Shown in pieces: positions 15,116 through 24,567 of a stretch of 64,000 bases of DNA. Origin of the DNA: Microbacterium sp. ET2. Lineage in GTDB: Bacteria; Actinomycetota; Actinomycetes; Actinomycetales; Microbacteriaceae. Location of the stretch: positions 2,480,001 to 2,544,000 of the forward strand of contig NZ_CP128170.1 of the NCBI RefSeq assembly GCF_030347395.1. Reading direction: 5' to 3'. A model generated the notes under the pieces. It did no database searches. It worked only from the letters and a program-made list of their open reading frames with translations, and was not told where the DNA came from. Made by a program: the position numbers and the translations under genes. Numbering within the stretch: position 1 is the first letter of the stretch; every line of letters begins with the position of its first letter.

Positions 15116-15175
15116 CCATTGCTGAACGCTGGGGCGCGCCGCAGGCGCCGCCACGCAATGGGGTCTGCGTTCAGC
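15116..15175. repeat. nested inverted repeats overlapping the GT2 gene end
   Basis: CCATTGC (15116-15122)/GCAATGG (15155-15161) and GCTGAACGC (15121-15129)/GCGTTCAGC (15167-15175) are two alternative stems in 60 bp; the last arm covers the stop codon of the glycosyltransferase. Function unknown. Confidence 0.5.
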
Positions 15176-16220
15176 GTATTGGCGCGGCAAGATCTTCACC
15201 AACGCCGGACCCATCTGTTTTCCCAGCCGTAACACGGGCGGTCGCGGGTGCGCTGTCACGGTATCCGCGCATGATGTATGCCCGGCGGAGCATGCGCGCG
15301 ATTCCGTCCTGTAACGCCCAGAGTCGGGCGCCTCCCGCGAAGCGATAGAGGCCGACGACGAGCCGCTCTGCGACGCTCCGGTCGCGCCGCGAGATCCGAC
15401 GTTGAAGCTCTGCGAGAACCCGGTTGTAGCTCGCAGGAATCTCGACCATCGGGGTCAGCTGCGCGGGTCGTTCTCCCCAGCGCGCCTCGAGCATCCTCAC
15501 CGCGCCGCCACGGGCGAGACACTCGCGGCGGAAGCCGTCGAGCCCGCGACGGTGATGGTGAAGTGCGCGCGCCGCCGGATCGAAGGTGGCCTCAGCACCG
15601 AGCATCCCCAGCCGCCGGCCGAGATCGAGGTCTTCGTTGTACTCCAACCGCACCGACGGCTTCACCGCTTCGCCGCGTCGGTACAGATCCGTGGGCAGGC
15701 TGACGTTCCCGCCCCAGAGCGATCCGAGGATGTCGGATGACCCCGAGGTCACCCACCCGCGCACCTGCGCTTCGTAGTCGCGCGCATACAGGAACGTCGG
15801 GGCGTGATCGCGTCCCCGCCGGGTAGGCAGCGACACCGGCATGTAGCCCTGCAGGACGCGGTCGGCCAGCGCGGCGTGGAAGGCCCGATGACGCGCGACC
15901 AGGTCGGATTTCGGTTCCACGTCGTCGTCGACGGCGAGCACGATGTCGCAGGTGACGAGGTCGAGACCGGCGATCCTGGCGAGCGCGAGACCGCGGTTCT
16001 CCGGCAGCTCCGCCACGATGACGCGGGGGTCCGCCGACTCCGCGGCGAGGATCTCCTGCCACCCCTCGTGCGGACCGTCGAGCACCATGACGACCTGGTC
16101 GGCGTCCTGCGCGAGATACTCGCGCACGAGCGGGGGAATCCGCTCGAGGCGCCGGTACGAGGGGAGGACCACGGCCAGCGTGCGCCGGATCCGTGCGCCT
16201 TCCGGATCGTCGAGCGTCAC
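15171..16220 (-). CDS. glycosyltransferase family 2
   Basis: A 349-residue GT2 (GT-A fold) enzyme. Visible features are the nucleotide-binding start (VVLPSYRRLERIPPLV), the metal-binding acidic cluster AVDDDVEP, and the acceptor-side acidic motif EYNEDLDLGRR. It probably adds one sugar to a lipid-linked glycan at the inner membrane face. GTG 16220 overlaps the TGA of the acyltransferase gene (GTGA) and has GAGGAGG upstream. It is the last gene of a nine-gene overlapping operon that mixes sugar and acyl chemistry. Donor and acceptor are unknown. Confidence 0.88.
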   Translation of the reverse strand: MTLDDPEGARIRRTLAVVLPSYRRLERIPPLVREYLAQDADQVVMVLDGPHEGWQEILAAESADPRVIVAELPENRGLALARIAGLDLVTCDIVLAVDDDVEPKSDLVARHRAFHAALADRVLQGYMPVSLPTRRGRDHAPTFLYARDYEAQVRGWVTSGSSDILGSLWGGNVSLPTDLYRRGEAVKPSVRLEYNEDLDLGRRLGMLGAEATFDPAARALHHHRRGLDGFRRECLARGGAVRMLEARWGERPAQLTPMVEIPASYNRVLAELQRRISRRDRSVAERLVVGLYRFAGGARLWALQDGIARMLRRAYIMRGYRDSAPATARVTAGKTDGSGVGEDLAAPIR

Positions 16221-23066: not shown

Positions 23067-23614
23067 GCTGCGACCTCCTGGGGAGCCAGCGCGGGGTCGC
23101 GCCAGCCGATCACCCGCGCCGGCACCCCGCCGGCGATCGCCCCGGCGGGAACATCCTTCGTCACCACGGCGCCGGCGGCGATGATGGCCCCGTCGCCGAT
23201 CGTCACTCCGGCGACCACCACGGTGTTGGCGCCGAGCCACACGTCGCGGCCGACGATGATGTCTTCCTCGATCTTGGGCTGATCCATGACGAACTCGCCG
23301 GGCACCGTGGCGTAGTTCGACGCGGTCAGAGTGACGTTCGGCGCCAGCAGGCACTTCTCGCCGAAGACGATGCGGCCGGTGCTGTTGCCGGCCCAGATCA
23401 CGCTGTGCTCGCCGATGTGGGAGCCGGCGCCGATCGTGATGCGCTCGGCGTTGCGGAACGACACGTTGGGGGCGAAGCTGACGTTCTCCCCACGGTTGAG
23501 CTTGGCCACCTGCTGCACGTGCGAGTACGACGCGAAGTAGAGCAGCCGCACGGCCTGGAGGTAGGTCTTGGGGTTCAGGAAGGCGCGCAGCGCAGGGCTG
23601 AGTCGACCGCTCAT
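23063..23614 (-). CDS. hexapeptide-repeat acyl/acetyltransferase
   Basis: A 183-residue left-handed beta-helix transferase (WcaF/CysE-like). Repeats of the isoleucine-patch type run from about residue 50 to 165 (ERITIGAGSHIGEHSVIWAG, DIIVGRDVWLGANTVVVAG, VTIGDGAIIAAGAVVTKDVP, AIAGGVPARVIG). It probably O-acetylates a glycan unit. ATG 23614 overlaps the upstream GT stop (ATGA), with AGGAG before it. A similar enzyme is encoded at 33423-33980. Confidence 0.9.
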   Translation of the reverse strand: MSGRLSPALRAFLNPKTYLQAVRLLYFASYSHVQQVAKLNRGENVSFAPNVSFRNAERITIGAGSHIGEHSVIWAGNSTGRIVFGEKCLLAPNVTLTASNYATVPGEFVMDQPKIEEDIIVGRDVWLGANTVVVAGVTIGDGAIIAAGAVVTKDVPAGAIAGGVPARVIGWRDPALAPQEVAA

Positions 23615-24567
23615 CCGATCACTCCTTCCGTGCTCAGCGGAACCTCGGCGGGCGGGTTTGTGTCGGTGAAGACCTGGCCGTCCACGGCCAGCCGTCGGCC
23701 CTCGGAGAAGCCGCGGCGCAGTCCCCGCAGATAGGCGACCTGGCCCGTGCGAGCCCGCGCAGACCGGAGGCGCCGGGCCAGCCGGGTGAGGGCCCGGCGC
23801 ACGACGACGGCGGTGACCGCACGGCCCGCCGATCGGTCGAGCGTCAGCCACTTCGCGCACATCGCGCCGATTCCCAGCCCGTAGTTCTCGTTCAACCGCA
23901 CGTAGTCGTCATCCCCGCGGGTGAAGACGTGGGTGACCACGGCCTGCGGCACGCGGACCACACGCGACCCTGCCCGCAGCACCCGGCACAGCATGTCCAT
24001 GTCCTCGGCGCCGCCGAAGCGGCGCCCGGCGCCCAGAACCGGATCGAATCCTCCGAGCTCGACGGCGAGGGAACGGCGGAAGGCCATCAGCGCGCCGTGA
24101 CCGGCATCGAGTCCCTCGGTCACGCGTTCCAGCGTCACCGCCGGACCGGTCGGTGCCGCACTCGTCGCGGTGTGGTCGCGGAGGTGCCCGGTCGTCGCGC
24201 CGACCGCGACGTCGGCGAACGGGGCCACCAGGGGAGCGAGGGCGTCGGATGCCAGTGCGCAGTCGTCATCGGTGAAGACGACGATCTCGCGTGCGGTGGA
24301 GCGCAGGCCCAGGTTCCGGGCGATCGAGAGCCCGGGGACGTCGGAGCGCACGTATCGCACGCCGGCGGCATCGGCGACCTCGCGGGTGCGCGGATCGCGC
24401 GAGGCGGAGTCCACCACGACGATCTCGGCGTCACCCGCTGCGGCCCGCGCCGCCACCAGCGCGTCGCGCAGGAGCTCGGGGCGGTCGCGCGTGCAGATCA
24501 CGAGCGCGACGGATGCTGCTTCGACGACGAGTTCGTCGCGAGCAGCATGATGACGAGGCGCGGCCAT
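23611..24567 (-). CDS. glycosyltransferase family 2
   Basis: A 318-residue GT2 enzyme, first gene of the leftward operon. Motifs: ALVICTRDRPELLRDAL, VVVDSASRDPRTREV, FTDDDCALASDAL, RRFGGAEDMDMLCRVLRAG. Start ATG 24567 follows GGGG in SD position; a longer in-frame start would add 41 unrelated residues. It diverges from the Wzz-like gene across a 248-bp control region, so the two EPS operons may share regulation. Confidence 0.87.
   Translation of the reverse strand: MAAPRHHAARDELVVEAASVALVICTRDRPELLRDALVAARAAAGDAEIVVVDSASRDPRTREVADAAGVRYVRSDVPGLSIARNLGLRSTAREIVVFTDDDCALASDALAPLVAPFADVAVGATTGHLRDHTATSAAPTGPAVTLERVTEGLDAGHGALMAFRRSLAVELGGFDPVLGAGRRFGGAEDMDMLCRVLRAGSRVVRVPQAVVTHVFTRGDDDYVRLNENYGLGIGAMCAKWLTLDRSAGRAVTAVVVRRALTRLARRLRSARARTGQVAYLRGLRRGFSEGRRLAVDGQVFTDTNPPAEVPLSTEGVIG

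Follow-up and report, generated by a model that had tools for sequence, protein, structure and literature searches.

A nine-gene operon of Microbacterium sp. ET2 joins fatty acyl-AMP ligases to Wzx/Wzy-type glycan genes and is predicted to acylate an exopolysaccharide

The nine-gene operon

The stretch of DNA analysed here (64,000 bp, hereafter the window) corresponds to bases 2480001-2544000 of the 3.6 Mb, single-contig genome of Microbacterium sp. ET2. Nine minus-strand open reading frames (ORFs), spanning 24567 to 15171, encode fatty acyl-AMP ligases (FAALs), an acyl carrier protein (ACP), a phosphopantetheinyl transferase (PPTase) and a WS/DGAT-like acyltransferase (WSD) among family 2 glycosyltransferases (GT2). 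This operon is likely a dedicated, coenzyme A (CoA)-independent fatty-acylation branch of a Wzx/Wzy-type exopolysaccharide pathway, acylating the repeat unit via acyl-ACP. It brings known parts into a new combination, and is a good candidate for the type of genes behind fatty-acid-decorated bacterial polysaccharides. An original prediction had proposed a dedicated pathway that acylates a polysaccharide or makes a glycolipid. The conserved gene set and the gene fusions described below support such a pathway, in which acylation itself is a predicted step. A polysaccharide is favoured over a free glycolipid because the operon is flanked by flippase, Wzy_C-family and glycosyltransferase genes.

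The nine genes, and the family names first given to them, were borne out by ORF, Pfam and NCBIfam searches:

23611..24567, minus strand: GT2a, family 2 glycosyltransferase, first gene of the operon (PF00535, 63.6 bits)
23063..23614, minus strand: AcT, hexapeptide-repeat O-acetyltransferase-like protein (PF00132; 64-82% blastp identity to relatives)
22089..23066, minus strand: GT2b, family 2 glycosyltransferase (PF00535, 70.9 bits)
20300..22030, minus strand: FAAL1, fatty acyl-AMP ligase with a TTG start (PF00501, 210 bits; solved relatives)
18502..20232, minus strand: FAAL2, fatty acyl-AMP ligase (PF00501, 224 bits; FAAL markers)
18185..18460, minus strand: ACP, free-standing acyl carrier protein, GLDS motif with Ser48 (PF00550)
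17574..18188, minus strand: PPTase, 4'-phosphopantetheinyl transferase (ACPS; PF01648)
16217..17551, minus strand: WSD, WS/DGAT-like acyltransferase, HHATLDG motif (WS_DGAT_cat, PF03007)
15171..16220, minus strand: GT2c, family 2 glycosyltransferase confined to FAAL-type loci (PF00535)

The starts and stops had been described as mostly overlapping, which is too strong. Overlaps of 4 bp exist at four of the eight junctions (GT2a/AcT, AcT/GT2b, ACP/PPTase and WSD/GT2c), the other four being gaps of 58, 67, 41 and 22 bp.

Conservation of the gene set

Had the set not been conserved together, the original prediction would have fallen. The order GT2a-AcT-GT2b-FAAL(1-3)-ACP-PPTase-WSD-GT2c (type A) was kept in all eight loci found, from Microbacterium, Herbiconiux and Agromyces, and a chance neighbourhood is rejected on this shared order. 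The eight loci are those of the window, Herbiconiux daphne, Agromyces protaetiae (G1051) and five other Microbacterium genomes (G216, G168, G237, G1019 and G195). A FAAL-pair scan of species genomes gave 57 pattern matches, of which two were confirmed, H. daphne and Microbacterium allomyrinae (G216); both showed nine genes in the order of the window, with the same divergent genes alongside. The number of FAAL copies was one in G168, G237 and G1019, two in the window, M. allomyrinae and H. daphne, and three in G195 and A. protaetiae. Every type A locus had a single ACP and a single PPTase, and WSD was doubled in G195 and G1019. Another contig of G1019 (L129:9406-11142) carries one more type A-like FAAL, 57% identical to FAAL2, which neither ACP nor WS/DGAT genes adjoin.

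A sister locus (type B) was present in 16 other Microbacteriaceae genomes, with the order GT4x-GT2a-WSD-AcT, in most cases with GT2b and GT4y next, and with the same kind of divergent genes alongside. FAAL, ACP, PPTase and GT2c were found by tblastn in none of the 16 within the 13-20 kb examined. The uniform tblastn table of 24 loci placed these four genes in 8/8 type A loci, WSD, GT2a and AcT in 24/24, and GT2b in 22/24 stretches; the acyltransferase and glycosyltransferase genes are constant across the 24 loci and FAAL is variable. None of the 23 genomes compared carried both locus types.

WS/DGAT searches, with counts that include the window's own genome, matched 32 of 149 genomes in the genus sample (14 strong, above 100 bits: five type A and nine type B) and 10 of 150 in the family sample (seven strong). 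Seven of 347 genomes in the order sample matched at 1e-25, all Microbacteriaceae, and 126 of 396 in the phylum sample, where the three genomes above 80 bits were again all Microbacteriaceae; in these last two samples scoring was limited to four to five candidates per genome, and some matches may have been missed. A wide distribution was rejected on this basis, strong matches being confined to Microbacteriaceae in the phylum and order samples. There was no hint of a mobile element, no search of viral contigs or of plasmid and phage collections having been made. The protein search returned 76 proteins among 7996 candidates scored. Neighbourhoods were read for the strong WS/DGAT matches, setting apart 18 of the 32 genus genomes with weak matches alone (below 80 bits). 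Kept separate from the 24-locus table were the weak WS/DGAT matches of G089, G006 and G064 (L018-L020, L028, L029), L031 (the same locus as L065), and the regions with module 2 (see below) or other content (L066, L075, L119-L121, L125-L129).

Fusions of the acyltransferase with glycosyltransferases

WSD was fused in one ORF to GT2a in G206 (731 amino acids) and G155 (732 amino acids), and to GT2b in G195 (758 amino acids). The fused frames (L069 for G195; L071 and L073 for the GT2a type) had no internal stop, and each contained both PF00535 and PF03007. Since G206 and G155 are closely related, the fusions count as two types rather than as three separate events. For a metagenome-assembled genome of Microbacterium pygmaeum, a partial GT2b-WSD protein has also been deposited. 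Compared with gene neighbourhood, the fusions link acyl transfer more directly to glycan assembly, and they offer a direct handle on the sugar step that is acylated.

Family markers of the activation and transfer enzymes

The markers described for EcFAAL are the helix T252-R258, W224, M231, F279 and P226 (PMC8460268). FAAL2 showed T237-R243, W209, M216, F264 and P211, the same residues at a constant offset of 15, and FAAL1 likewise. The FAAL-specific insertion of the N-terminal domain (22-23 columns in two blocks) was filled in FAAL1, FAAL2, FAAL3 (described below) and four relatives; it was empty in the CoA-ligase-type proteins L001-L003 of the host genome and similar in L004 and L006, the misread ORFs L005 and L007 being left uncounted. 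By these markers FAAL1 and FAAL2 belong to the FAAL family, and are predicted to transfer the acyl group to holo-ACP rather than to CoA. FadD23, FadD32 and the fatty acyl-adenylate ligase 3pbk were among the best solved relatives of FAAL2. FAAL1 and FAAL2 were 73% identical and paired in the tree with support of 100/100, and FAAL1 is read as an in-lineage duplicate of FAAL2 with an altered A5 motif.

Ser48 of ACP was invariant in the four aligned rows, and the GADIE and WTAKEA motifs of PPTase in the three aligned rows. WSD has the HHxxxD(G) motif and a C-domain-like fold, as expected of the WS/DGAT superfamily. Its fold resembles wax ester synthase and PapA5, and its closest solved relatives are wax-ester enzymes. 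The Pfam and NCBIfam scan, which covered residues 58-444, gave one WS/DGAT family each for WSD and no NodA match. Over these residues WSD reached 67.8 bits against TIGR02946 and the full-length second acyltransferase WSD2 (see below) 91.7 bits, both short of the cut-off of 309.95.

A second acyl-supply module

Whole genomes were searched for FAAL (1e-60) and ACP (1e-8) in a set of 25, comprising seven of type A, 16 of type B and two with neither. FAAL was found in 7/7, 5/16 and 0/2, respectively, and ACP in 7/7, 6/16 and 0/2; ten of the 16 type B genomes had neither at these thresholds. The five FAAL-positive type B genomes (G142, G1119, G249, G200 and G254) carried a different module (module 2), with FAAL located 13.8-16.8 kb from WSD and accompanied by two acyl-CoA dehydrogenase-like genes, ACP and PPTase within the same polysaccharide region. 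Both dehydrogenases were confirmed by Pfam in G142 alone, and the G249 ACP, missed by the gene finder, was recovered by profile search. The WSDs of these five genomes formed one tree group (100/99). The sixth ACP-positive type B genome, G199, contained a partial module 2 (L075). The notion that sister loci merely lack the FAAL set holds for the operon; another FAAL-ACP-PPTase module lies close by in 5/16.

A similar form of module 2 occurs in the host genome, starting at position 60369 and passing the window end (L009:3705-6888), with WSD2, FAAL3, two dehydrogenase-like genes and ACP2:

60369..61619, minus strand: WSD2, a second WS/DGAT protein, belonging to the sister group and divergent from FAAL3 (PF03007; with the type A WSDs in the tree, 100/99)
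61927..63639, plus strand: FAAL3, canonical FAAL of module 2 (PF00501)

The second dehydrogenase-like gene gave no match in Pfam, and no PPTase was seen adjoining this module. Module 2 is complete in M. allomyrinae (L066). A FAAL search of 299 family genomes at 1e-100, with four candidates scored in each, found four: the window's own, G142, G756 and G073. The cluster of G073 (L121) was unlike the others: it contains a small protein resembling ACP2 and a gene with weak similarity to dehydrogenases, and is probably a different secondary-metabolite locus.

Flanking polysaccharide genes and a model of the pathway

The genes on both sides of the operon, and one at a greater distance, belong to polysaccharide families:

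13596..14852, minus strand: UDP-glucose/GDP-mannose dehydrogenase family (PF03721, PF00984, PF03720)
24816..25847, plus strand: Wzz-like membrane protein (our label), upstream of and divergent from the operon
25863..27428, plus strand: Wzy_C/O-antigen ligase family (PF04932, 35.4 bits)
27425..28273, plus strand: GT2d, family 2 glycosyltransferase of the divergent operon (PF00535)
28273..29949, plus strand: Wzx-type flippase family (PF13440, 233.5 bits; PF01943)
44652..46328, plus strand: polyprenyl glycosylphosphotransferase, the priming enzyme (PF02397, 229 bits; TIGR03025, 422.6 bits, above cut-off)

The dehydrogenase gene lies downstream of the operon, is also the next gene in several relatives, and likely supplies an acidic sugar. 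The Wzy_C-family protein is likely a polymerase or a ligase. Flippase, polymerase-family and priming transferase genes are all in the window, as a Wzx/Wzy pathway would have them, and we infer that the priming enzyme, part of the wider polysaccharide region, is linked to the nine-gene operon. Among the 24 locus stretches, Wzz-like genes were present in 24, Wzy_C-family genes in 23, GT2d in 20 and Wzx-like genes in 19; several of the misses fall at stretch ends, and the Wzx match of L063/L064 is outside the divergent operon.

We propose the following model, in which gene identity, family markers, fold, conservation, fusions and the lack of a modular polyketide synthase (PKS) are computed, and activity, donor, acceptor, chain length, timing and product are predicted. 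FAAL1 and FAAL2, assigned by family and pocket markers, would adenylate a fatty acid. The acyl group would then pass to the free-standing ACP, whose serine would be primed by the adjoining PPTase, as families and gene order suggest. A cytoplasmic WSD would move the acyl group from acyl-ACP to a sugar hydroxyl of the lipid-linked repeat unit, near the GT2 enzymes that build this unit; the fusions support this step. AcT would add acetyl groups. Wzx would flip the repeat unit and the Wzy-type protein would join the units into an amphipathic, fatty-acid-bearing surface polymer. Loci without FAAL may draw on acyl-CoA. We lean slightly towards a more specific form of this model, a PKS-free, CoA-independent lipidation line within a Wzx/Wzy operon, in which WSD acylates every repeat unit before export and two interchangeable modules supply the acyl group. 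If true, such a line would provide fatty-acid-bearing exopolysaccharide with a genetic basis. The operon is a compact conserved gene set amenable to deletion and assay.

Opposing observations and alternative explanations

Several observations weigh against an operon-encoded, FAAL-dependent fatty acylation. Acceptor, chain length, linkage and product are predictions. The type A set is rare (5/149 genomes of the genus sample), and the Wzz-like gene, although present in 24/24 tabulated loci, bears a label with no Pfam match behind it. No FAAL was found at 1e-60 in 11/16 type B genomes and no ACP at 1e-8 in 10/16; since these genomes carry WS/DGAT, the family is not always in need of FAAL or ACP, and acyl-CoA may serve there. 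G756 (L120) has a FAAL-dehydrogenase-ACP-PPTase module with no WS/DGAT within 20 kb. None of the 15 type A FAALs retains the HDMG motif's Asp, which all four module-2 FAALs have; the type A form is HHxMG (once HHxTG). At the Tyr position of the A5 motif, 14/15 type A FAALs had no Tyr and 13/15 no aromatic residue. These two changes suggest that the acid activated by type A FAALs could be unusual. With its longer branch (0.29 vs 0.10 for FAAL2) and odd A5 motif, FAAL1 may also be changing or losing function.

The same chemistry could yield a secreted acylated oligosaccharide instead of a polymer, with the Wzx-like protein exporting a small glycolipid. A FAAL and an acyltransferase acting on a sugar are known from the mycobacterial acyltrehaloses described in PMC4183827. 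We consider this product unlikely, as the Wzz-like, Wzy_C-family, GT2d and Wzx-like genes recur in the 24 stretches at the frequencies given above and a polyprenyl glycosylphosphotransferase is inside the window. It is also doubtful that the substrate of the FAAL-like enzymes is a different acid (short-chain, hydroxy or aromatic), placed on the glycan via the same ACP and WS/DGAT. The pocket changes that set all 15 type A FAALs apart from the four module-2 FAALs would fit such an acid, but the WS/DGAT fold, the wax-ester enzymes closest to it and the solved relatives of FAAL2 (FadD23, FadD32 and 3pbk) point to fatty acids.

Wax ester and triacylglycerol synthesis are the best-known roles of WS/DGAT enzymes. 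A storage-lipid or wax-ester island, located in the glycan locus by happenstance, would agree with these roles and with the TIGR02946 match to WSD. It is very improbable: the score is far under the cut-off (67.8 vs 309.95 bits), WSD is grouped with GT2a and AcT in 24/24 loci, and a storage lipid would hardly need a CoA-rejecting FAAL-ACP pair. We set it aside on the glycosyltransferase fusions, the locus conservation and the TIGR02946 score.

A lipopeptide or polyketide-like metabolite, with FAAL loading and an assembly line elsewhere in the genome, is hardly credible. According to PMC8460268, typical bacterial FAALs always occur together with PKS or PKS/nonribosomal peptide synthetase (NRPS) genes. 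The FAALs and ACP match parts of NRPS/PKS models far under their cut-offs (336.7 of 4090 bits; 27.7 of 2100), a 1340-amino-acid frame combines AMP-binding and PP-binding matches, and the genome has one weak condensation-domain match (47.6 bits). However, Pfam gave no ketoacyl synthase or condensation family for the proteins of the operon or for its scanned neighbours, and the genome-wide ketoacyl synthase search gave one full match, a 432-amino-acid frame, and two fragments of about 22 bits. The genome thus shows no modular PKS, and a hidden PKS partner is rejected. The 432-amino-acid ketoacyl synthase probably serves fatty-acid synthesis, because an ACP match adjoins it. The constancy of the acyltransferase and glycosyltransferase genes across loci in which FAAL varies also argues against an assembly line. 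Genome-wide there were four PP-binding matches: the operon ACP, ACP2, the match adjoining the ketoacyl synthase and that in the 1340-amino-acid frame. This frame (G000:C1:626668-628347) is a small NRPS-like protein far from the operon.

Comparison with known systems

The operon with its predicted sugar acylation resembles the mycobacterial FadD-PapA systems (FadD21/PapA3 for diacyltrehalose, FadD28/PapA5 for phthiocerol dimycocerosate) in the PapA5-like fold of WSD. There, however, a PKS carries and extends the chain, whereas the operon has a free-standing ACP with its own PPTase, Wzx/Wzy-type glycan genes as acceptor machinery and a host genome without modular PKS. None of the nine proteins is a ketoacyl synthase, and one full match exists genome-wide. 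In the mycobacterial acyltrehaloses, a Pap enzyme acylates the sugar and is fed through FAAL with a PKS in between (as outlined in PMC4183827). WSD differs from the WS/DGAT wax ester synthases (6chj, 7nxg) in being far under the TIGR02946 cut-off, FAAL-ACP-linked and, in some species, fused to GT2. The Dlt operon, which D-alanylates teichoic acid with an adenylating ligase, a free-standing carrier protein and transfer to the surface polymer, follows the same logic, but here the donor enzyme is a FAAL and the transferase has a WS/DGAT fold. No MBOAT-type DltB was among the Pfam matches of the nine proteins.

Nod factor synthesis (NodC, NodA, ACP, NodL) likewise combines a glycosyltransferase, an O-acetyltransferase, a carrier-bound acyl group and an acyltransferase acting on an oligosaccharide, as summarized in PMC5080398. 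GT2a and GT2c gave weak NodC matches in NCBIfam, far under cut-off. NodA, however, is an N-acyltransferase, and WSD matches it in neither Pfam nor NCBIfam.

The product type expected of the operon is close to the Rhodococcus fatty-acid-containing exopolysaccharides (FR2, FACEPS), in which palmitate and stearate are described as ester-bound to the sugar backbone of an acidic polymer (PMC12786566). There the chemistry is known, and the main text of that review does not contain the word "acyltransferase"; the operon is known from its genes. The same review describes genetic work on such polymers as scarce.

The operon places FAALs in an unusual setting compared with the PKS or PKS/NRPS association stated in PMC8460268, the conclusions of which mention FAAL-like fusions and operons regarded as PKS/NRPS-independent. 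Mycobacterial sulfolipids and glycopeptidolipid appear in Table 2 of a 2025 FAAL review, but no exopolysaccharide does (PMC11837247). The words "fatty" and "carrier protein" gave no match in a paper on Actinoplanes exopolysaccharide clusters (PMC13390465). Among the matches listed in the open-access literature, a scope that leaves most subscription journals outside, there was no FAAL-exopolysaccharide pathway and no such gene set, in agreement with the earlier remark that no pathway with this set had been described. Sugar acylation via FAAL/Pap and acylated exopolysaccharides are known, and it is the gene set that is new to the literature searched.

Other features of the region

The gene after Wzx (29966-31019) looks frame-broken in the window: its relatives (351 and 401 amino acids; L030, L031) match two frames that meet at about 30741-30745. 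The M. allomyrinae copy gave no family in the Pfam search. Between 46000 and 58000, the G+C content was 0.57-0.63 compared to 0.67 overall. This segment looks acquired and holds a second polysaccharide set, with Wzy_C, GT2, pyruvyl-transferase-like, flippase-like, GT4 and Wzz (with ATPase domain) genes. DUF4082-type large proteins and similar unnamed ones recur by these polysaccharide loci, in the window (11602-13413 and 40354-41913) and in relatives, with a weak mutual similarity of about 24-32%.

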